From: Myxococcus eversor
GTDB taxonomy: Bacteria > Myxococcota > Myxococcia > Myxococcales > Myxococcaceae
Assembly (NCBI RefSeq): GCF_010894455.1
Contig: NZ_JAAIXY010000002.1
Coordinates: forward strand, 1 to 64,000
Reading direction: 5' to 3'
DNA length: 64,000 nucleotides
Shown piece after piece: positions 45,102-56,123 of the stretch (the first letter of the stretch is position 1; each line of letters starts with the position of its first letter). The notes beneath the pieces were generated by a model, which searched no databases, was not told where the DNA came from, and saw only the letters and a program-made list of their open reading frames with translations. Both the position numbers and the translations under genes were made by a program.

Positions 45102-45122
45102 CGGTTCCCTCCGCTGAGTGAG

Positions 45123-45755
45123 TCAGGAGCCGAGCCGCCCGATGAGGGCGCCGCGAACGGCCTGGGCGACGGCGCGTGAGTCAGTGGTGAGTTCCTCGGG
45201 CAGCCAGTAGTAGAGCAGCCGGCCACCGGTCTCCACCTGTGCACGGAGGAAGCGCATGCCCTGGGCTTCCGCGCGCTCGGGGCTTCGGGGGAGGCACTGC
45301 TTGCACAGACAGGGCAGCGCGGAGTGCTCCTGGTGCGCGGTGAAGTTGATGGGTCCGCCGCCCGCGCTTCCGAGCAGGAGCTCCGAGTCCGCCAAGGTGA
45401 GGACGCGAGGCGTCTGGAGGGACATGCCCAGCGCGCCCTTCGCGGCCTGGATGCCCTTGCCGGACTCGAAGCGCAGCTTGGAGATGGCGGAGGTGACGTC
45501 GGTGATGGGGACGCGGTTCTTGCGGCCAATCCACCCCTCGTCATCGGAGGACAGGCCTTCGAGCACGGCGACGAGCCAGAGAGCTTCGTCGGGGGGACGC
45601 ACGGTGACGAGGAAGAGGCGTCCGCCGTCCTCGAGTGGAGTGAGGTGCTTGCTCTGGCTGCGGTAGCGGTCCGTCGGCAACACCTGGCCGGGAGAGAGGC
45701 CAGCGGCCTCCTTCTCGAAAATCGCCTTGCTGATGATGGCCAGCATGTCGGGCAT
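45123..45755 (-). CDS. Conserved hypothetical protein
   Basis: A 210-residue cytoplasmic protein without a named family. The N-terminal 120 residues look like a beta-rich domain (GGRLFLVTVRPPDEALWLVAVLEGL, VPITDVTSAISKLRF) and a cysteine cluster CLCKQCL lies near residue 150, suggesting metal binding. It is divergent from the HEAT-AKR gene with only 36 bp between the start codons, so the promoters overlap; a link to the adjoining RT cassette is possible but unproven. Confidence 0.65.
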   Translation of the reverse strand: MPDMLAIISKAIFEKEAAGLSPGQVLPTDRYRSQSKHLTPLEDGGRLFLVTVRPPDEALWLVAVLEGLSSDDEGWIGRKNRVPITDVTSAISKLRFESGKGIQAAKGALGMSLQTPRVLTLADSELLLGSAGGGPINFTAHQEHSALPCLCKQCLPRSPERAEAQGMRFLRAQVETGGRLLYYWLPEELTTDSRAVAQAVRGALIGRLGS

Positions 45756-45791
45756 GTCCGCAGTGTAGCAGGGCGCCTAGAGTCTCCGGCG

Positions 45792-48700
45792 ATGCTCGAA
45801 CTGGACCTGGCCACCGTGCGGCTGCTCGACGAGGACGTCACGGTGCGGCGCGAGGCGGCGGGCGCGGTCGACGCCTCGGAGCTGGTGGGACGCTACGCGC
45901 TGAGGCAGGCGCTGCTCACGGATGAGGACGCGGAGGTGCGCGCAATCTCCGCGCGGCGACTCGGTGATGCGAGGGATGCGCGCTTTGCGTCCGCGCTGAT
46001 TGAAGCGCTCGATGATGCCATGCCGATGGTGCGGGATAGAGCGTGGCGCGCGCTGGCTCGGTTGGGTGTGGAGGCGCTGTTGCCTCATGCGGAGCGGGCG
46101 GTGCGGCGGGAGTCCGTGTGGTGGGTGCGCAGGGCGATGGTGCGTGCGGCGGCCTCCGTCGCGGGCTCGGGTGCGGTGGGGGTATTGCTCGCGGCGCTGG
46201 AGGACCCGTTCTGGCGCGTGCGCCATGCGGCGGTGCAGGCCCTCGCGTGGCTGGGGGCGGGGAACGAGGGACTGAGGGAGCAGGTGCGGAGGGCGGCGGA
46301 GGCGAGGGAGCAGGGACCGCTGCGTTCGGCGGTGGCGTGGCTGGAAGGTGAGTGGCGTGCCGTGGCTTCGGGTGACGTGGGGCCGCGTCCGTTTGATGCG
46401 GAGGGCAGTGCGATGGCTGCCCCCCGGGCAGAGGGCTCACGCGTCGACGATGTGGAAGCGGGACTCGCGAGTGAGGACCCCGCGGTCACCACCGCGCGAC
46501 TGGAGGCACGACCCGCCGAGTCCCTCTCCGCGCGGGAGCTGGTGGAGTGGCTGGGAGATCCACACGAGCCCCTTCGTGCCCTCGCGCGTCGGCGGCTCCG
46601 TGAACGCAAGGACGCGGAAGCACCGCGCCTCGCCATGCACTGGCTGGACGAGCCGCGCGTGCCGCATGCCCAGGACGAAGCACGCGCGTTGCTGGAGCGC
46701 CTCAACGTGGATGAGGTCGACCTCGCGACCCGCATCCTCGCGGCGCCACCCCGGCCGGGCTCACTGGCCTGGGCCACACGTGTCGCGGTGAAGCAGGGAC
46801 ACGAGGCACTCCTGGCCAGTGCGCGCGCGTTGGCGCAACACCTCGAGGCCGACATCCGCCGAGCGGTGATCTCCGCGCTCGTGTTCGACCCGGACAGTCG
46901 CGGCCTCGTGCTGAAGGCACTCGATGACGAAGACGCTTCCGTGCGCGCCGAGGTCATCGGAGCCTGGGAGCGCAGGCCTCGCTCGGCATCGGCCGTCGAG
47001 GACTTCGCCACGGCGCTGGTGGCCTTCGCTCCACGAGCCACCTCGCCGCGAGAGCGCCGGGCCGTCGCCACCGCCGCAGCGTACATGGAAGCCTCCGAGC
47101 CCCTCCTCCGTGCATCTCAAGATGAGGACCCCTCCGTGCGCGCGGTGGCGCTGCAAGCCCTCGCGTCACTGGACTGGCTCACGCAGACCGAACGAGAGCA
47201 CGCTGAGTCCCACGAGGACCCGTGGCTGAGAGCCGCCGTGCTGGACGTCGACAGCGCTGCCCGGGTCTGCCTCGATGACTCCGACCCGAGCGTGCGTCGC
47301 ATGGCGTTGCAGCTCGCCCTCTCACACGGCCGCGCGCTCGCATCCGGCGACCCGACCTACCAGTCCACGCTCGCGCTCGGCTGCGCCCTCTCCCCCGACC
47401 CGTGGATACGAGCCCGCGCCGCCGAGCAACTCCGACCCCAGAACGGTGACGCGGAGCTGCGCGCCCTGCTGCGCCTGTCACGTGACACCGAGCTGATGGT
47501 CCGCAATGCGGCGGCCTCCCCACTGGAGGCCTGCGACACGCTCGATGAACGACTGGAGGCGCTGCTGGGCCCGCCGGCCAACTCTCGACTGGACGTTCCG
47601 CCACTTCCCGACATTCACAACAAGTTGCCCACACCAGAGGCCTCGCCGCTGGAGTCCGGCGACACACGGCAGGAGCCACCACCACGCCAGCCCACCCCCG
47701 GGCACGACACCGACTTGCGCATCGCCGCATGGACGTGGCGCCTGCGCCGAGCCGATGACACCGCCTTCGCCCTGCTCCGCGACTCCCTGCGCGCCCACAC
47801 CGAGCCCGCCCGCGTCGTCACGCACCTGCAAGCGCTGACACTCACCTTCCCCGATGCGCTCTTCACCGCCGAGCCCGAGCTCGCGCGCCTCCGCCCCACC
47901 TCCGCTCCACGACAGCGCACCACCCCATCACCTCGCCCACCGCCTCCACCGCGAGCCTCGTCACGTCCCCTGGGGCGCACTGGACTGAATGTCTCGCCCC
48001 TCGTCCTCTCCGGCGCGCACCTCACCTCGCGCGAGCCCTTCTTCGAGGCGCACGAAGCCGGCATCGACACCTTCTTCTGGGAGCCCCGTTACGCCGCGTT
48101 GACGCAGTTCCTTCGCAGCGGGCGCGGCCCTCGCGAGCGCTCCGTCATCGTGGCGGGCACGTACCACTCGGGCCCTGCCGCCATTCGTCGCGACGTGGAG
48201 TCCGCGCTGCGCCGACTGCGCACCTCGTGGCTCGACGTCTTCCTGCTCTTCTGGGTCCGCGCCCCCGAGCGCCTCTCCGACGAGGACTACGCCGCCCTGG
48301 AGCGCCTGCGCACCGAAGGCAAGCTGCGCGCCTTTGGCTTCTCCACGCACCTGCGAGACCTCGCTCGCGACGCGCTCACCCGGCACCCATGGCCCGTCGT
48401 GATGACACGGCACAGCGCCGCGCACCCGGGTGCCGAGTCCGCCTTCTTCCCCGAGGCCCAGCGCCAGGGCACTGGCGTGCTCACCTTCACCACCACCTGC
48501 TACGGCCGCCTGCTGCGCCCCATCCCCGGCGTGGCCCAGGACACGCCCCTCCCCTCCGCGGTGGACTGCTACCGCTACTCCCTCTCGCAGCCCGGCGTCA
48601 GCGCGAGCCTCACCGCGCCCCGCAACCGCCGCGAGCTGCTGCACAACCTCGAAGTGCTGTCCCGCCCGTGGATGGAGCCAGAGGCCCTGTCCGTCATGCG

Positions 48701-48842
48701 CGCCCACGGCGAGCACGTGCGCGCCCAGGGACGACAGCTCGACACCCTGGTGCGTCGGGCGCCGGGAGGAAGTCGGGAAGCGCTGCTCGCCCTCCTGGAA
48801 GAAGACGGGCCCCTGGAGCTCGGCGACCTTCCTTCATCGTGA
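45792..48842 (+). CDS. HEAT-repeat protein fused to a degenerate aldo/keto-reductase domain
   Basis: A 1016-residue protein. Residues 1 to about 700 are HEAT-like helical repeats (for example LTDEDAEVRAISARRLGDA, LEDPFWRVRHAAVQALAWLG, LDDEDASVRAEVIGAWERR, LDDSDPSVRRMALQLAL). From about 723 an aldo/keto-reductase domain begins (RPLGRTGLNVSPLVLSG). Against the AKR tetrad the Asp site reads F in TFFWEPRYA (Tyr retained), the Lys site reads T in VAGTYHSG, and the His site reads F in VFLLFW, so it is probably non-catalytic. The ATG at 45792 is the first in frame after the divergent gene. The reverse transcriptase follows 202 bp later on the same strand. Confidence 0.85.
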   Translation: MLELDLATVRLLDEDVTVRREAAGAVDASELVGRYALRQALLTDEDAEVRAISARRLGDARDARFASALIEALDDAMPMVRDRAWRALARLGVEALLPHAERAVRRESVWWVRRAMVRAAASVAGSGAVGVLLAALEDPFWRVRHAAVQALAWLGAGNEGLREQVRRAAEAREQGPLRSAVAWLEGEWRAVASGDVGPRPFDAEGSAMAAPRAEGSRVDDVEAGLASEDPAVTTARLEARPAESLSARELVEWLGDPHEPLRALARRRLRERKDAEAPRLAMHWLDEPRVPHAQDEARALLERLNVDEVDLATRILAAPPRPGSLAWATRVAVKQGHEALLASARALAQHLEADIRRAVISALVFDPDSRGLVLKALDDEDASVRAEVIGAWERRPRSASAVEDFATALVAFAPRATSPRERRAVATAAAYMEASEPLLRASQDEDPSVRAVALQALASLDWLTQTEREHAESHEDPWLRAAVLDVDSAARVCLDDSDPSVRRMALQLALSHGRALASGDPTYQSTLALGCALSPDPWIRARAAEQLRPQNGDAELRALLRLSRDTELMVRNAAASPLEACDTLDERLEALLGPPANSRLDVPPLPDIHNKLPTPEASPLESGDTRQEPPPRQPTPGHDTDLRIAAWTWRLRRADDTAFALLRDSLRAHTEPARVVTHLQALTLTFPDALFTAEPELARLRPTSAPRQRTTPSPRPPPPPRASSRPLGRTGLNVSPLVLSGAHLTSREPFFEAHEAGIDTFFWEPRYAALTQFLRSGRGPRERSVIVAGTYHSGPAAIRRDVESALRRLRTSWLDVFLLFWVRAPERLSDEDYAALERLRTEGKLRAFGFSTHLRDLARDALTRHPWPVVMTRHSAAHPGAESAFFPEAQRQGTGVLTFTTTCYGRLLRPIPGVAQDTPLPSAVDCYRYSLSQPGVSASLTAPRNRRELLHNLEVLSRPWMEPEALSVMRAHGEHVRAQGRQLDTLVRRAPGGSREALLALLEEDGPLELGDLPSS

Positions 48843-49044
48843 AGGATGTGGTGAGCTTCGGCCCGCTCCTGGGGCCGCGTGCAGCCAGCCTTTCGTCCGC
48901 GATGTCACGTCGCGGCTGCCGATGACACCCATTGAAGGACGACGCGGTACGAGGTCCGCCTGGCGGGCTTCCCCGACCTCGTCCGCCTCTGCCGTGCAGG
49001 TGGCGGCGTCCCCAGGAGCACGCGGTTCCGCCTGGAGCGCCTGA
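48830..49044 (+). ncRNA. Hairpin-rich spacer, candidate retron msr-msd RNA
   Basis: The spacer before the RT gene is unusually rich in inverted repeats: TCCTTCA/TGAAGGA (48830-48846, loop TCG), CGGCCC/GGGCCG (48859-48877) right after an AGC at 48854, GCAGCC/GGCTGC (48881-48919) enclosing GCGA/TCGC, and ACGAGGTC/GACCTCGT extended by GCGG/CCGC (48944-48986). Retron RNAs are encoded just upstream of the RT, contain a branching G often within AGC, and fold into such hairpins. I did not find the long a1/a2 flanking repeat expected of a retron, so this remains a candidate. Confidence 0.35.
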
Positions 49045-50463
49045 ATGGACCTGGTCTCACTCCTCCTCGAGCTCAAGCCCTTGATGGAGGACCCCGAGGC
49101 GCACTTCAGCCGCATCACCGAACTGCTGGAGCGCCACCAGGGCCTCGCCGAATACGAAGTCGCCCGCTTCTACGTCAGCCGACACTGGAGCGAGGTCGTC
49201 ACGAAGCGCCTGGGCAGCGTGGACCCGCGCGAGCGCATCCAGGCCGTGCGCCTCATCCCCCTGCTCTTCCCCCGAGTCACCGCCGCCGGCCACCTGCGCC
49301 GCCGCGTGAAGGACGCCGACTCCCGCGTGGCCTCCGCCGCGCGCGCCGCCGTGCGCAAGCTGGGGCTCGCCGACGTGTCGCTGCCCGACAGCCGCGAGGA
49401 GCCGCCCCGCCGCCCGAGCCCCCACGCCCTCGGAGGCTGGAACCCCACCGGCTGGCACTTCGGCCTCTACCCCAGGCGTCGCGAAGACCTGGTGAAGCGC
49501 AAGCCCTCCGTCACCGCGAAGCTGCCCAAGCTCCAATCCCGCGATGACGTGGCGAAGCTGGTGGGCGTGGACGTCGCGGAGCTGGACGCGCTGATGCGCC
49601 CCGGCTCCGGCGCGGGCTCAGGCTACGTGGAGTTCGAGACGCCCAAGCGCTCCGGCGGCATGCGCCGCATCTGCGCACCACGCGCGAAGCTCAAGGCCGC
49701 GCAGCGCAACCTGCTCGAAGGACTGCTCACACACCTGCCCACGCACCCCGCCGTGCACGGCTTCGTGCCCGGCCGCTCCACGGTGACGAACGCGGAGGTC
49801 CACGTCGGCGCCCACGTCGTGGTGCGCGTGGACCTGGAGGACTTCTTCCCCACGGTGCACTACCGCCGCGTGAAGGGCTTCTTCGAGGCCCATGGCTACA
49901 ACGATGAGGTGTCCTCCACCCTCGCGGGCCTCACCACCTGGCGGCCCAAGCTCCCGGACGGCACCGTGGTGTGGCCCGGCGTGCTGCCCCAGGGCGCGCC
50001 CACCTCGCCCGCCATCGCCAACCTCGTCTGCCGCCGCATGGACGCGCGCCTGCACGCGCTGGCGAAGAAGGCGGGCGCTTCGTACACGCGCTACGCGGAT
50101 GACCTCTCCTTCTCCTTCGTCAAACCTCCGGAGCGACTGGGCCGCTTCCTCTGGTGGGTGAACGCCATCCTCCAGCAGGAGGGCTTCTCGGAGAACGCCG
50201 CCAAGCGCCGCGTCATGCGCCAGGGCGGACGCCAGCGGGTGACGGGCCTCACCGTCAATCAACGCGTGTCCATCCCTCGCGAGGAGCGCCGTCGCTTCAA
50301 GGCCATCCTCGCCAACTGTCGCAAGCACGGCGTGGAGTCGCAGGCCCGGGGCCGTCCCAACTTCCCCGCCTGGCTCGAGGGCTACGCCGCCTACGTGCGC
50401 ATGGTGCATCCGGAGCTGGGCACGCGCTGGCAGCGCGAGGTGAAGGAGCTGCTGAACCCATGA
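49045..50463 (+). CDS. Retron-type reverse transcriptase with HEAT-like N-terminus
   Basis: A 472-residue reverse transcriptase. RT motifs: NAEVH (249-253, the retron NAxxH), VDLEDFF (262-268), LPQGAPTSPAIANL (314-327), the catalytic YADD (350-353) and VTGL (399-402, the retron VTG). The first 110 residues (SVDPRERIQAVRLIPLLFPRV, VKDADSRVASAARAAVRKLG) resemble a HEAT repeat pair, matching the HEAT protein upstream. The sequence diverges from the M. xanthus Mx162 RT as I recall it. The ATG has GGAG 7 nt upstream, and the stop overlaps the next gene (ATGA). Confidence 0.9.
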   Translation: MDLVSLLLELKPLMEDPEAHFSRITELLERHQGLAEYEVARFYVSRHWSEVVTKRLGSVDPRERIQAVRLIPLLFPRVTAAGHLRRRVKDADSRVASAARAAVRKLGLADVSLPDSREEPPRRPSPHALGGWNPTGWHFGLYPRRREDLVKRKPSVTAKLPKLQSRDDVAKLVGVDVAELDALMRPGSGAGSGYVEFETPKRSGGMRRICAPRAKLKAAQRNLLEGLLTHLPTHPAVHGFVPGRSTVTNAEVHVGAHVVVRVDLEDFFPTVHYRRVKGFFEAHGYNDEVSSTLAGLTTWRPKLPDGTVVWPGVLPQGAPTSPAIANLVCRRMDARLHALAKKAGASYTRYADDLSFSFVKPPERLGRFLWWVNAILQQEGFSENAAKRRVMRQGGRQRVTGLTVNQRVSIPREERRRFKAILANCRKHGVESQARGRPNFPAWLEGYAAYVRMVHPELGTRWQREVKELLNP

Positions 50464-51434
50464 GCCACTTCGAGGCACTGCTGGCGAAAGTCGTCGAGGA
50501 CCCCGCCAACGACGCGCCGAGACTCGCGTGCGCGGAGGCGCTGCAGTCCGTGGACGCCGCGCGCGCCGAGTTCATCCGCGTGCAGCTCGCCCTGCCCGGC
50601 CGCATGGACCCGGCCCGACGCCGCTCACTCCACCTGCGCGCGCGGGAGCTGATGGACGCGCACGGCCGCGACTGGCTCAAGCCGCTGCGCGACGCGAAAG
50701 TGCACGAGCCGCGCTACCACCGGGGCTTCATCGAGGAGCTGAACCTCGCCGAAGACAAGCTCGCGAAGCACGGCCCGGAGCTGTTCGCGTTGGAGCCCGT
50801 GTCCCGGCTGTGCGTGGACACGCGCGATGGCAAGGGCCTGGAGCGCGCCGCCGAGCAGCCCTGGTTCTCCCAGGTCCATTGGCTGCGATTGGAAGGCTCG
50901 GGGGTCGACGCGGCGACGAAGGCGCTGGCCTCCTCCCCTCGGGCCGGACACCTGACCGGCCTGGTGCTGTCGGGCGCGACGGACGCGGCGGTCCGCGCCC
51001 TCGTCGAGAGCAATGTCCTGCCCAAGCTGCGCTCCGTCAGCTTCTCCAGCGGCGCGCTGACGAACGCCAGCGCGGGGCTCCTCTCGAAGGCGACCCTTCC
51101 ATGGGGGCGGCTGTATCTGTCCGGCTCCGGCCTGTCCGACGAAGGCGTGGAGACTCTGGCGGGCGCGAAGGGACTGGGCGCGCTCCAATGGCTGACGCTC
51201 AACCGCAACGAACTGAGCGACGAAGCCGCGGAGGCCCTCGCGAAGAGCAAGGGCCTCACGGGCCTGGAACGACTGGAGCTGTCGAAGAACGACTTGAGCG
51301 AGGAAGGCGCGCTCGCGTTCCGCACCGCCAAGGCCCTGCCGAAGCTGCGGCGCCTGGAGCTGCTGGAGATGGGCCTGGACCGGGATGAGCTGGGCCCACT
51401 CGTCAAGCGACTGGGTGCGGGCCTGCGGCTCTGA
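50460..51434 (+). CDS. TIGR02996-domain leucine-rich-repeat protein
   Basis: A 324-residue cytoplasmic protein. Residues 1-50 (FEALLAKVVEDPANDAPRLACAEALQS, AEFIRVQLAL) are the repeat-companion domain TIGR02996, common in myxobacteria and planctomycetes next to LRR or HEAT arrays. Residues 130-320 are leucine-rich repeats of the ribonuclease-inhibitor type (LQWLTLNRNELSDEAAEALA, LERLELSKNDLSEEGALAF). Translation is coupled to the RT by ATGA, so it is very likely part of the same system, possibly as a sensor or partner. Confidence 0.85.
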   Translation: MSHFEALLAKVVEDPANDAPRLACAEALQSVDAARAEFIRVQLALPGRMDPARRRSLHLRARELMDAHGRDWLKPLRDAKVHEPRYHRGFIEELNLAEDKLAKHGPELFALEPVSRLCVDTRDGKGLERAAEQPWFSQVHWLRLEGSGVDAATKALASSPRAGHLTGLVLSGATDAAVRALVESNVLPKLRSVSFSSGALTNASAGLLSKATLPWGRLYLSGSGLSDEGVETLAGAKGLGALQWLTLNRNELSDEAAEALAKSKGLTGLERLELSKNDLSEEGALAFRTAKALPKLRRLELLEMGLDRDELGPLVKRLGAGLRL

Positions 51435-51504
51435 GCGGCTTCACACCTGGAGCCTTCCGGGGCGACGACGCAATCGCCGTCATCGCCCCGGCACCAGCGA
51501 CGGC

Positions 51505-54500
51505 TCAGGGCATCGCGACAACACCCGGCACGGCGCGCTGCCCAGGAACCCCCAGGCCCAGCGTCCCGTGGAAGTTGGTACCCCAGCTCACCGCCGCCCC
51601 GTCACGATTGAGGGCGATGGAGAAGTCCCCTCCGGCGGAGACCGTCTTCGCGCCTCGGAGCCCCTTCACCAACGTGGGCTCCAACCGGTGAGAGCTGTCT
51701 CCGGTGCCCAGCTGCCCGTGCGAGTTTCGCCCCCAGGCCCAGACGTCGGAGCCCACGGCGAAGGTGTGATTGGCGCCAACGCCCAGGGACTCCACCTCCG
51801 CCAGGCCCGGCACGGGAGACGGGTAGATGCGCGTGGACAGCCCGCCGTCCCCCAACTGCCCATGGCTGTTGGAGCCCCAGGTCCAGACGGTGCCGTCAGC
51901 TCGCAGCGCCACCGAGTGATAACCGCCCGCATCCATGGACTTCACCCCTTCGAGTCCCATCACCTGGAACAGTGACTTGCGGTCGGTGGCGGTCCCTTCT
52001 CCGAGCTGGCCATACGCATTGTTGCCACAGGCCCACAACGTCCCGTCCGCGCGCAGCACCAGCGAGTGGTATTCGCCGCCCGCCACCGCCACCGCGCCCT
52101 TCAGCTCCTTCATGGGCGTGGGAATCCAACGCGCCTCCAGCGTGCCGTCACCGAGCTGCCCGAAGACGTTGTAGCCCCAGCTCCAGACGGTGCCGTCCTC
52201 CGTCACCGCCAGCGAGTGGTAGCTGCCCGCGGCGATGGACACCACGTGGCCCAGGCCCACCACCTGGACGGGCCTCAAGCTCTGCGTCGTGGTGCCATCA
52301 CCGAGCTGCCCGAAGACGTTGTTGCCCCACGCCCACACCGTTCCGTCCTCGGCCAGCGCCAGCGTGTGCCACGCGCCAGGAGCCACCGCCCGAATCTTCG
52401 GCAACTCCTCCACCGTCGTCGGCAGGGACTCGTCCTCGGTGGTGCCGTTGCCGAGCTGCCCGTACCCGTTGCCACCCCACGTCTGCACGGTGCCATCCGA
52501 GAGGAGCGCCACCGCGTGCTGGTACCACGCCCGCAGCGAGACGACAGGCGCCAGGTCCTTCGACGTCGGCAGCTTGATGTCCACCGGCGCCGTCCTCGGC
52601 CCCGACTCCACTTCGCCGAGCTGGCCATACTCGTGGCTGCCCCAGGCTCGCACTCCGCTGTCCTCCAGCAGCGCCAGCGAGTGCTGCTCGCCCGCGGCCA
52701 CCTCGGCGACCGCGGTGAGCCCCACCACCTGCACCGGCTTGAAGCGCAGGAAGCGGGTGCTGTCGCCCACCTGCCCGTAGCCGTTGTCTCCCCAGCCCCA
52801 CGTCGTGCCGTCGTGAAGCACGGCCACCGCGTGGTGAGAGCCCGCGGCCACCGCCTTGACGCTCTTGAGCAGGAGCACCGGCTTCGGCGTTCCCCTCGGG
52901 CTGTTGGTGCCATCACCGAGCTGCCCGGCGCTGTTCGCACCCCAGCTCCACACCGTGCCGTCATGCAGCACCGCCAGCGAGAAGGCGCGGCCGACACTCA
53001 CGCTCGCGACGGCCTCCAGCCCCGACACGCGCAGCGGCGTCGCGCTCGCGCTCGTGGTGCCATCACCGAGCTGGCCGGAGCCGTTCGCGCCCCAGGACCA
53101 CACCGCGCCGTCCTGTCCCACCGCGAGCGCATGGGCCTCGCCCATCACCACGGAGGCGATGCCCGACAAGGCCTTCACCTCCATCGGCGTGGCCCGGTCT
53201 CCCTTGGAGCCATCCCCCAGTTGTCCGCTGTCATTCGAGCCCCACGTCCACACCGTGCCGTCGGCGCGCAGGGCCATGGAGGAATCCCCCCCCGCCGCCA
53301 CGGCCACCACGCCCCACAGCCCCTCCAGCATCATGGGCGTCAGGCGTGGCTTGACGGTGCCATCACCGAGCTGCCCGCGCGCATTCGCGCCCCACGTCCA
53401 CACCGTGCCGTCGCAGGAGAGGACCAGCGAGTGCTGCCCTCCCGTCGCGATGGAGCGGGCACACGGCAGGCCCTGCGCTGGCACGGGCGACGCGCGGTAG
53501 GTGGTGGTGCCATCGCCGAGCTGCCCCGAGGCGTTCTGCCCCCACGCGAGCACGGTGCCATCACCACGCACGAGCATCGAGTGCGACGTCCCCGCAACCA
53601 GCCTGCGTCCCTGCCCCAGACCGCGCACCTGCACCGGCACCGCGCTCCAACCCACGGCCCCCAGGCCCAGCTGTCCGAAGCGGTTGTAGCCCCACGCCAG
53701 CACCGTGCGGTCCTGACGCACCGCCAGCACATGAAGGTAGCTGCCACCGAGCAGCGTGACGCCGGAGGCCCCCGGCACCACGCCGGGCACCACGCGCGAG
53801 GTGACGCCTCCATCCCCAAGCTGGCCATACGTATTGGAGCCCCACGCGCGCAGCGTTCCATCCAGGCCCAGCGCCATGGAGTGGTACAGCCCGCCCGCCA
53901 CGGAGCGCACGCCCGTGAGTCCGGGCACCTGCACGGGACGGAACCGGTCCGCCCACGAGCCATCGCCGAGCTGCCCCTCCGCGTTGTCGCCCCACGCCCA
54001 CACGGTGCCGTTCTCGAGCACGGCCAGCGCATGCGCCGCGCCCGCGCTCACGCTCCGCACGCCCACAAGCCCCAGCACCTGCACCGGCGTCTCGCGCTGG
54101 ACGCCGCCGCCATCGCCCAGCTGTCCCTCGAAGCCATCGCCCCACGCCCTCACCGTGCCGTCGGTGAGCAACGCGAGCGAGAAGTAGGTCCCCGCCGCCA
54201 CGGCCACCGCCCTCGGGAGCGCCTTCACCTGCACCGGCGTGAGGCGGTCCTTCGTGGAGCCATCACCCAGTTGGCCCACGCCGTTGTAGCCCCACGTCCA
54301 CACCGTGCCATCGCTCCGCAGCGCCACCACGTGGCTGCCACCCGCGGCCAGCGACGTCACGCCACTCAGGCCCACCACCTGCACCGGCGTGATGCGGTCT
54401 CGCGTGGAGCCGTCGCCGAGCTGCCCGTTGGCATTGCGGCCCCAACCCCACACGGTGCCATCCGAGCGCAGCGCGAGCGAGTGATGTCCGGACGCGCTGA

Positions 54501-55872
54501 CGGCGCGCACGTCACCCAGGCCGAGCACCCGCACCGGCGCGTGACGCTCGGCGGCGGTTCCGTCACCCAGTTGCCCGTAGTAGTTGCGCCCCCAGCTCCA
54601 CACCGAGCCATCCGACAGCGAGGCCAGCGAGTGGAAGCTGCCCGAGGCCACCGCCGTGACGCCGGACAGGCGCGTCACCACCTCTGGAGAGAGCAGGCGC
54701 TCGGAGCTGCCATGGCCGAGCTGGCCGGAGGTGCCATTGCCCCAGGACCACAGCGTCCCATCCGCGCGCAGCGCCACCGCGTGCTGCGTCCCCGCGGCCA
54801 CCGCCGCCACCGAGCCCAGCCCGCGCACCAGCACGGGGAAGGGGCTGTCGGTGGTGGTGCCGTCGCCGAGCTGTCCGTTGGTGTTGCGGCCCCAGGTGAA
54901 CACCGTGCCGTCGTCAATCAACACCAGCGAGCCGGCGTCCTGCGCGGCCAGGGCCTTCACGCGCGAGAGGCCCGCGACCTGCACCGGTGAGGGCCGGTCG
55001 GACCAGGTCCCATCGCCGAGCTGGCTGGAGGCATTGCTGCCCCAGGCCCACACGGTGCCGTCGGAGCGCAGCGCGAGCGAGTGGTAGAGGCCCGCGGCCA
55101 CGGCGGTGACGTTCTTGATTTCAATCACCTGCGTCGGCGCCAGCCGCTGGGTGAAGGTGCCGTCGCCCAACTGGCCGTAGCTGTTGGCGCCCCAGGCCCA
55201 CACGGTGCCATCCGCGCGCACGGCCAGGGAGAAGTCGAAGCCCGCGCCCAGGGCCACCACGTTCGTGAGGCCCGTGACCTGGACAGGCGTGGGCCCTGGC
55301 TGGGTGTTGCCCCGGCCGAGCTGGCCATAGAAGTTGCTGCCCCAGGCCCACACGGTGCCGTCGGAGCGCAGCGCGAGCGAGTGGAACTCGCCGGCCGCCA
55401 CGCTCACCACCTCGGTGAGCCCGGCCACCTGGCGCGGCGTGGCCCGGTCCGTGGTGGTGCCGTCACCGAGCTGGCCGGAGGAGTTGCTGCCCCACGTCCA
55501 CACCGTCCGGTCCGAGCGCACCGCGAGCGAGTGGGAGTCCCCCGCCGCCACGCCGGTGATGTCCTTCAGGCCCGGAACTTGTTGAGCGAGGACGCGCTGG
55601 AAGGACATCGCTCCGGAGCCGAGCTGACCCGAGGCATTGCCACCCCAGGCCCACACGGTGCCCAGGGGTGTGACGTAGAGCGAGTGCTGTGCACCCGCGG
55701 CGACCTTGGGGGCGGACGCCACCGCGAGGGCCTGGGAGCGCGTGGCTCCCGACTCCGACGGGATTCGCGCCGCGACGGGCGCAGAGAGGTCATCGCACCC
55801 CGCGGCGAGCAGAACGCTCAGCACCAATACCAGCGGGAAACACGGGCCCGCCTTCAGGTTGTCCATCCGCAT
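51505..55872 (-). CDS. Lipoprotein with 28 RCC1 repeats
   Basis: A 1455-residue lipoprotein (signal ending LLAAGC, then DDLS). The rest is a continuous array of RCC1 repeats of about 50 residues with the unit GTVWAWGSNxxGQLGDGT. Counting the W-x-W/C-G-x-N/D core I find 28 units, which would make four seven-bladed propellers. RCC1-repeat surface proteins are frequent in myxobacteria; function unknown, probably protein or glycan binding. I chose ATG 55872, with GGAGG 7 nt upstream, over the GTG one codon earlier. The DNA is a tandem repeat of about 150-bp units. Confidence 0.9.
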   Translation of the reverse strand: MRMDNLKAGPCFPLVLVLSVLLAAGCDDLSAPVAARIPSESGATRSQALAVASAPKVAAGAQHSLYVTPLGTVWAWGGNASGQLGSGAMSFQRVLAQQVPGLKDITGVAAGDSHSLAVRSDRTVWTWGSNSSGQLGDGTTTDRATPRQVAGLTEVVSVAAGEFHSLALRSDGTVWAWGSNFYGQLGRGNTQPGPTPVQVTGLTNVVALGAGFDFSLAVRADGTVWAWGANSYGQLGDGTFTQRLAPTQVIEIKNVTAVAAGLYHSLALRSDGTVWAWGSNASSQLGDGTWSDRPSPVQVAGLSRVKALAAQDAGSLVLIDDGTVFTWGRNTNGQLGDGTTTDSPFPVLVRGLGSVAAVAAGTQHAVALRADGTLWSWGNGTSGQLGHGSSERLLSPEVVTRLSGVTAVASGSFHSLASLSDGSVWSWGRNYYGQLGDGTAAERHAPVRVLGLGDVRAVSASGHHSLALRSDGTVWGWGRNANGQLGDGSTRDRITPVQVVGLSGVTSLAAGGSHVVALRSDGTVWTWGYNGVGQLGDGSTKDRLTPVQVKALPRAVAVAAGTYFSLALLTDGTVRAWGDGFEGQLGDGGGVQRETPVQVLGLVGVRSVSAGAAHALAVLENGTVWAWGDNAEGQLGDGSWADRFRPVQVPGLTGVRSVAGGLYHSMALGLDGTLRAWGSNTYGQLGDGGVTSRVVPGVVPGASGVTLLGGSYLHVLAVRQDRTVLAWGYNRFGQLGLGAVGWSAVPVQVRGLGQGRRLVAGTSHSMLVRGDGTVLAWGQNASGQLGDGTTTYRASPVPAQGLPCARSIATGGQHSLVLSCDGTVWTWGANARGQLGDGTVKPRLTPMMLEGLWGVVAVAAGGDSSMALRADGTVWTWGSNDSGQLGDGSKGDRATPMEVKALSGIASVVMGEAHALAVGQDGAVWSWGANGSGQLGDGTTSASATPLRVSGLEAVASVSVGRAFSLAVLHDGTVWSWGANSAGQLGDGTNSPRGTPKPVLLLKSVKAVAAGSHHAVAVLHDGTTWGWGDNGYGQVGDSTRFLRFKPVQVVGLTAVAEVAAGEQHSLALLEDSGVRAWGSHEYGQLGEVESGPRTAPVDIKLPTSKDLAPVVSLRAWYQHAVALLSDGTVQTWGGNGYGQLGNGTTEDESLPTTVEELPKIRAVAPGAWHTLALAEDGTVWAWGNNVFGQLGDGTTTQSLRPVQVVGLGHVVSIAAGSYHSLAVTEDGTVWSWGYNVFGQLGDGTLEARWIPTPMKELKGAVAVAGGEYHSLVLRADGTLWACGNNAYGQLGEGTATDRKSLFQVMGLEGVKSMDAGGYHSVALRADGTVWTWGSNSHGQLGDGGLSTRIYPSPVPGLAEVESLGVGANHTFAVGSDVWAWGRNSHGQLGTGDSSHRLEPTLVKGLRGAKTVSAGGDFSIALNRDGAAVSWGTNFHGTLGLGVPGQRAVPGVVAMP

Positions 55873-56123
55873 CACTTCGCCTCCAGCGCGAGAAGCGGCC
55901 GTCCATACCTCGTGTCCTTGGCGGATGAGAAGCGTCGTGCGCGGGCACGCTTGCCAGGAGGAGGACGGCGCGTCGGGAAGACCCCGCCCAGGGCAACGGA
56001 GTCACACCCGTCCCAGGAGCTTCCTCCACGGGCAGGCAGGCGGAACACAGTCGCTGGGTGATTCACGTTTCTTCACGAGGAATGCGTTGCGGTGCGTCGA
56101 AGCCAGGAGAGGATTGGGAGCCC

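Follow-up and report, generated by a model that had tools for sequence, protein, structure and literature searches.

Retrons, bacterial systems in which a small RNA of their own is reverse-transcribed, mostly as protection against viruses, were discovered in myxobacteria, where type XIII (the Mx162/Mx65 kind) is common and most effectors are unstudied. They are defined by a reverse transcriptase (RT) with the motifs YADD, NAXXH and VTG and by a priming AGC (PMC6868368), and effector release controlled by the small RNA-linked DNA (msDNA) has been described for Ec86, Ec83 and Eco8 (PMC13158370). Here we analyzed a 6.4-kb gene block of a Myxococcus-like bacterium (Myxococcus eversor, contig NZ_JAAIXY010000002.1, positions 1 to 64,000; this whole 64,000-nt stretch is referred to as the window). 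The block encodes a structured noncoding RNA (ncRNA), an RT and a large protein in which HEAT repeats are fused to an aldo-keto reductase (AKR) fold, hereafter HEAT-AKR, together with a leucine-rich-repeat (LRR) protein and the product of a divergently oriented gene (Table 1). All sequence criteria that were tested identify the block as a retron, which makes it a candidate for a new retron type and not a new kind of system. We assign a probability of roughly 0.7 to the reading that it is a complete retron of a candidate new type that is not in the annotation sets searched. Judging from the RT and RNA sequences, it almost certainly makes msDNA, and HEAT-AKR is highly likely, from its genomic linkage, to be the obligate protein partner.

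A structured RNA and a retron reverse transcriptase

The RNA sits in the 202-nt spacer located 5′ of the RT gene; no other non-coding part of the locus is conserved as strongly. As RNA, the spacer folds at -86.6 kcal/mol versus -68.9 kcal/mol in shuffled sequences (z -4.0) and beats 199 of 200 dinucleotide shuffles. We counted covariation on the structure composed of the a1/a2 arms, the msr hairpin and the msd stem. Alignment A1 contains 12 pairs in which both sides have changed and pairing is kept, versus 3.1 after shuffling and 1-5 after sliding; when more distant relatives were added (alignment A6), such pairs numbered 20, versus 6.6 shuffled and 5-9 slid. These compensatory changes support the a1/a2 and msd helices. 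The msr hairpin hardly varies and thus says little for or against. The fold, its conservation across species and the covariation together place the spacer structure far beyond chance, which agrees with the first-pass annotation of the window, where this spacer had been described as hairpin-rich.

The predicted RNA has the anatomy of a retron: complementary a1/a2 arms, an AGC 3′ of a1, an msr hairpin and an msd stem-loop. Only one AGC is shared by all 31 RNAs; its A is at 48887 and its G at 48888, and it is preceded by C here or by T in three relatives (TAGC in L063, L065 and L108). The CAGC priming context also occurs in Mx162 and Sa163 (PMC6868368). The candidate priming G lies ~9 nt beyond the well-paired part of a1, and RNAalifold bridges this gap with weaker pairing. 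When the predicted msDNA was folded as DNA, its z was a modest -2.1. No Rfam family reached the gathering threshold in the whole window. Two loci contain tandem ncRNA copies, two each (L063:10942-11314, minus strand; L107:4154-4548, plus strand), and a second copy devoid of RT was found at L070:8235-8406 (minus strand; G043:C1:1238235-1238406; 147 bits); no gene of the cassette lies closer to it than 8 kb.

The RT domain was matched by RVT_1 (9e-20). The motifs NAxxH (aa 249-253), YADD (350-353) and VTG (399-401), already recognized in the first-pass annotation, are invariant in 29 aligned RTs, and a PDB search returned 18 matches at E<=0.001 with Ec67, Ec86 and Ec78 at the top. By these matches and motifs, the RT belongs with retron RTs and not with non-retron lineages. 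The retron reading proposed in that annotation is thus upheld by the RT and the msr-msd RNA together. In a tree of 122 RTs, those linked to the HEAT-AKR system lie on one side of a branch with SH-aLRT 99; they form a separate clade. It lies close to L076 and other unclassified RTs and is separate from RTs that, from their lengths of 485 and 427 aa, we take to be Mx162-like and Mx65-like, respectively. As the tree was a quick one with weak deeper branches, the sister group of the clade is not settled. One relative, the RT gene at L110:8001-9448, has an apparent frameshift near codon 370, which may be a sequencing error or decay.

The window's genome carries two further retrons (L034 and L035; G000:C43 and G000:C30), both of type XIII and both with a SWIM_XIII partner. 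Among the PADLOC models, RT_XIII fits the RT best (376 bits), and HEAT-AKR has a low-scoring match to HEAT-ARM_XIII (33 bits); since type XIII also has a large HEAT protein upstream of the ncRNA and RT, the locus could be another retron of this type in which the HEAT protein has diverged. However, the HEAT-ARM match covers generic HEAT repeats only, and the AKR barrel is not part of type XIII. SWIM_XIII matches none of HEAT-AKR, the RT and the LRR protein, whereas it matches in the two other retrons at 485-521 bits, and the RTs of the latter score higher than the present one (431-510 bits). In addition, the tree places the RT in neither the Mx162 nor the Mx65 clade, and RNA model R1 found no convincing match at type XIII loci (best 19 bits, E 0.02). 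Divergence from type XIII is therefore a very unlikely explanation, and membership in this type was rejected on the partners, which lack SWIM, and on the position in the RT tree.

The HEAT-AKR protein and its linkage to the retron

HEAT-AKR was matched by Pfam HEAT_2 (1.3e-22) and by the aldo/keto reductase domain (4e-9), and its AlphaFold model consists of a long alpha solenoid and an AKR barrel. Foldseek recovered the AKR fold (1ynp, E 1.5e-8); the closest barrels are AKR11C1 and its relatives, and the nucleotide receptor SmbA was among the first ten matches. PADLOC holds no model beyond generic HEAT that covers HEAT-AKR or the LRR protein. The barrel had been termed a pseudo-AKR in the first-pass annotation, and the catalytic Asp-Tyr-Lys-His set is indeed gone: Lys is replaced by Gly and His by Phe (alignment to 6cia; the same in relatives), Asp is mostly Asn, and the position of Tyr lies inside FFWEP. 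That term nevertheless covers only half of the picture, as FFWEP, G[TS][FY], S[TS]H, R[HY]SxAHxxAE, YG[RQ] and CYRY, or close variants of them, are kept from Myxococcus to Gemmata. As a different set of residues is kept across two phyla, the pocket looks retooled rather than dead, and retooling fits these alignments better than decay. A candidate rebuilt site comprises the Glu of FFWEP, the His of STH, the Arg and the HxxxHxxxE set in RHSxAHxxAE, YGR and DCYRY. The length of HEAT-AKR ranges from 898 to 1170 aa among relatives (L036-L063), mostly by differences in the solenoid, which may reflect a changing number of repeats. At L052 and L053 (G015 and G014), the gene is apparently split into an N-terminal part of 195 aa and a part of 754 aa, with two other genes between them.

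We surveyed the family in 96 genomes. The RT of this lineage was found at full length in 31 of them, with one (G056) truncated where its contig stops. An alignment-based RNA model recovered the RNA in 30 of these 31 genomes and in 0 of the 65 genomes without the RT, the missing one being G056 at its contig end. HEAT-AKR, searched for with its C-terminal part, is present in 30 of the 31: the C-terminal part matched at <=1e-76 in 29, and the N-terminal part is at the contig end in G056. The best match elsewhere in the family was 1e-34, to ordinary AKRs, with no ortholog there. The divergent gene accompanies the retron in all 31 genomes, at full length in 30 and as a C-terminal homologue beside the RT in G090, while its relatives in retron-less genomes are partial and N-terminal only (best 4.6e-44). 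The LRR gene is found in 26 of the 31 and truly absent in five. Thus, the conserved co-occurrence on which the earlier proposal depended was recovered for the RT, ncRNA, HEAT-AKR and divergent gene, which are present or absent together. Presence of the cassette varies within g1, g3 and g8, implying several gains or losses of the whole unit.

The linkage extends to other families and to Planctomycetota. In Polyangium sp. 6x1 (L107), HEAT-AKR (50% identity) is directly followed by the two RNA copies, with the RT 3.5 kb further, and in a Myxococcales metagenome-assembled genome (L108) HEAT-AKR, RNA and RT are consecutive. Two Gemmataceae (L111 and L134; Planctomycetota) encode a shorter HEAT-AKR divergently just upstream of the RT. 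In G197, one contig carries the RT, with an apparent frameshift, and the LRR gene, and another carries a relative of the C-terminal part of the divergent gene, HEAT-AKR and the RNA (69 bits, E 7e-14). G197 thereby ties the RNA to HEAT-AKR without the RT; as a metagenome assembly, it needs care. No ncRNA was found beside the RT of L110; the RNA was located next to HEAT-AKR on a different contig. When the RNA was searched for phylum-wide outside the family, no further copies emerged. At the level of gene content, these comparisons establish that HEAT-AKR goes with the RT and RNA in different genera and families and in two phyla.

Several observations weigh against a complete retron of a new type with HEAT-AKR as its partner. 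The co-occurrence counts among the 96 genomes are not phylogenetically independent. G090 has the divergent gene, ncRNA, RT and LRR gene without HEAT-AKR, and HEAT-AKR is therefore not strictly obligatory. In the g3 genomes, HEAT-AKR lies 10-14 kb from the RT with ordinary metabolic genes between them. RNA model R1 recognized no ncRNA beside the two Planctomycete RTs, where the intergenic space holds a long inverted repeat in L134 and only an 8-bp one in L111. Finally, within Myxococcus the cassette is inherited almost vertically, which would suit a role other than defence as well.

The G090 and g3 genomes, the five genomes lacking the LRR gene, and the conservation of the flanking genes in the window's own lineage would also suit a retron formed by the ncRNA and RT only, with HEAT-AKR, the LRR gene and the divergent gene being unrelated neighbors in a conserved chromosomal block. 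However, the whole block occurs unbroken next to several different flanks, empty sites lack it cleanly, and its parts are jointly present or absent in the family. Moreover, HEAT-AKR adjoins the RT in Planctomycetota in the opposite orientation and adjoins the ncRNA in G197 without the RT. Chance neighborhood is thus most improbable for the block as a whole; it is disfavored for HEAT-AKR and least so for the LRR gene.

Accessory genes and the borders of the unit

In G077 and G062, which have no retron, and in G060 and G071, whose cassette is at another site, g4 and the gene for an RCC1-repeat protein adjoin directly, with 72 bp between the flanking genes in G060. As the flanking genes adjoin at these empty sites, the inserted unit spans ~45102-51504; the divergent gene, HEAT-AKR, the RNA, the RT and the LRR gene make up its entire content. 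Direct repeats were looked for at the cassette borders and none were found, so there is no sign of site-specific insertion; no integrase was seen there. A scan of the cassette region for promoter and terminator consensus sequences gave no match. The RCC1-repeat protein adjoining the cassette (window 51505-55875, minus strand) has 1456 aa and some 26 RCC1 repeats. It was ruled out as a cassette member, being also present in genomes without the retron.

The first-pass annotation had placed three co-directional genes in the cassette, with the RT and LRR genes coupled by ATGA. The open reading frames, the ATGA overlap and the HEAT, AKR, RT and TIGR02996/LRR domains were all recovered, and all three genes are in the unit; the divergent gene had been missed. 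The suggestion that HEAT-AKR and the LRR protein are accessory parts stands for HEAT-AKR, linked as it is to the RT and ncRNA, and less so for the LRR protein (TIGR02996 match 9e-9 plus LRRs), which by its distribution is the least constant and most dispensable part of the cassette. The divergent protein has no Pfam match. Its AlphaFold model (pLDDT 85) was aligned by VIA-align to PH1033 with Z 10.1 over 116 residues, then to YTH and ASCH domains; all VIA matches listed belong to the PUA-like superfamily, while the Foldseek matches are weak (E 0.04-0.1). In this model, residues 1-135 are similar to the PUA-like superfamily (EVE, YTH, ASCH), many members of which bind modified bases. C149, C151 and C154 are invariant.

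Table 1. Features of the retron cassette (positions in the window)
Feature	Position	Strand	Basis or remark
Whole retron cassette	45102..51504	.	stretch missing at empty sites
Divergent gene (product 210 aa) with a predicted PUA/EVE/YTH/ASCH-like domain at the N-terminus (aa 1-135) and a CxCxxC C-terminal domain	45123..45755	-	
HEAT-repeat/AKR-fold protein, 1016 aa, putative effector or sensor	45792..48842	+	Pfam HEAT_2, Aldo_ket_red; AlphaFold, Foldseek
AKR-fold TIM barrel, aa ~723-990	47958..48761	+	catalytic Lys, His replaced; FFWEP, S[TS]H, RHSxAHxxAE, YGR, DCYRY kept
Retron ncRNA (msr-msd)	48865..49019	+	kept in 30 family genomes, Polyangium and others; compensatory changes
a1 arm	48865..48878	+	pairs with 49006-49019; 13 pairs, 10 changed on both sides (A6)
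CAGC, candidate priming G at 48888	48886..48889	+	A and G invariant, 31 RNAs
msr hairpin CCGCGATG-TCA-CGTCGCGG	48897..48915	+	8 pairs, 6 never vary, 100% paired
msd stem-loop, template of predicted msDNA	48944..48986	+	12 pairs, 9 changed on both sides (helices 3, 4)
a2 arm	49006..49019	+	pairs with a1 48865-48878; same basis as a1
Retron RT, 472 aa, N-terminal extension ~155 aa	49045..50463	+	RVT_1, motifs, PDB matches, tree
RT motifs	NAxxH 49789-49803, YADD 50092-50103, VTG 50239-50247	+	alignment of RTs
TIGR02996/LRR protein, 324 aa	50460..51434	+	ATGA overlap with RT; 26/31 retron genomes

Possible functions and relation to described retrons

We propose that the RT would prime from G48888 and, with the msd as template, produce a short msDNA some 65-70 nt long. 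The RT and msDNA might bind the large HEAT solenoid and keep the C-terminal AKR-fold barrel inactive; phage infection that alters the msDNA or RT would then free the barrel, as in Ec86, Ec83 and Eco8. The freed barrel could be the effector, or it could sense a ligand and thereby switch the complex. Modified bases may be read by the predicted EVE/YTH-like product of the divergent gene. A coupled adaptor, lost by some lineages, is a possible role for the TIGR02996-LRR protein. Within this scheme, a putative anti-phage role of the cassette is somewhat favored, and the chances that HEAT-AKR is the toxic part are about even. A bolder version, in which the AKR-fold barrel with its rebuilt NAD(P)-type site represents a novel class of effector for retrons and, with its partner from a modified-base-reader superfamily, the retron senses base modification and kills or arrests the cell via an unprecedented enzyme, is tentative and rather doubtful.

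The same partners could instead form a real retron that regulates host physiology through msDNA and HEAT-AKR, perhaps by sensing nucleotides. SmbA, among the closest AKR-fold structures, is a ligand-switched protein and a receptor of c-di-GMP and ppGpp (PMC9944927). Inheritance of the cassette is mostly vertical inside Myxococcus, consistent with the vertical inheritance described for myxobacterial retrons (PMC6868368), and many genes near the cassette are ordinary. On the other hand, its distribution is patchy, the whole unit having been lost or relocated within g1, g3 and g8, and the HEAT solenoids vary in length, both of which look more like a defence system. To our knowledge, the retrons of known function are anti-phage. 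We regard a regulatory role as a fair rival, unlikely but less so than the type XIII and chance-neighbor explanations.

As a candidate new type, the locus adds to the retron repertoire a partner composed of a HEAT solenoid and an apparently retooled AKR barrel. Across two phyla this partner stays with the RT or RNA, which brings a specific effector and a specific surface within reach of tests. Point mutants can be designed from the conserved pocket, and the retron-less relatives offer clean hosts; laboratory M. xanthus has no such cassette. In myxobacteria, the compact RNA might be of use for genome editing. The composition had been thought undescribed, and no HEAT-AKR partner was found in the retron types that could be checked in the annotation sets and literature searched, with the clades of the Mestre 2020 classification outside the comparison; the literature search found no paper joining retrons with AKRs.

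Among known systems, type XIII (Mx162/Mx65) shares with the locus an N-terminally extended RT, an upstream HEAT-repeat protein, an ncRNA between the partner genes and the RT, and the CAGC priming context of Mx162. In contrast, type XIII has a SWIM protein, which is missing here, where the HEAT repeats are fused to an AKR barrel, the cassette includes a downstream LRR gene and a divergent gene with a predicted EVE/YTH-like product, the RT belongs to a separate clade, and the RNA is not recognized at type XIII loci. Ec86/Eco1 (type II) is similar in the RT motifs, the msr-msd anatomy and the RT domain, which is alignable (E 3e-34), but its effector is a nucleoside deoxyribosyltransferase-like protein (NDT) instead of HEAT-AKR. 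The unclassified myxobacterial RTs (PADLOC RT_other), including L076 from a retron-less relative, lie near the sister group of this RT clade; L076 differs in standing alone without HEAT-AKR, LRR or divergent gene. SmbA of Caulobacter has neither HEAT repeats nor a retron, and its likeness, which is one of fold only, lies in the AKR-fold barrel as a ligand switch.

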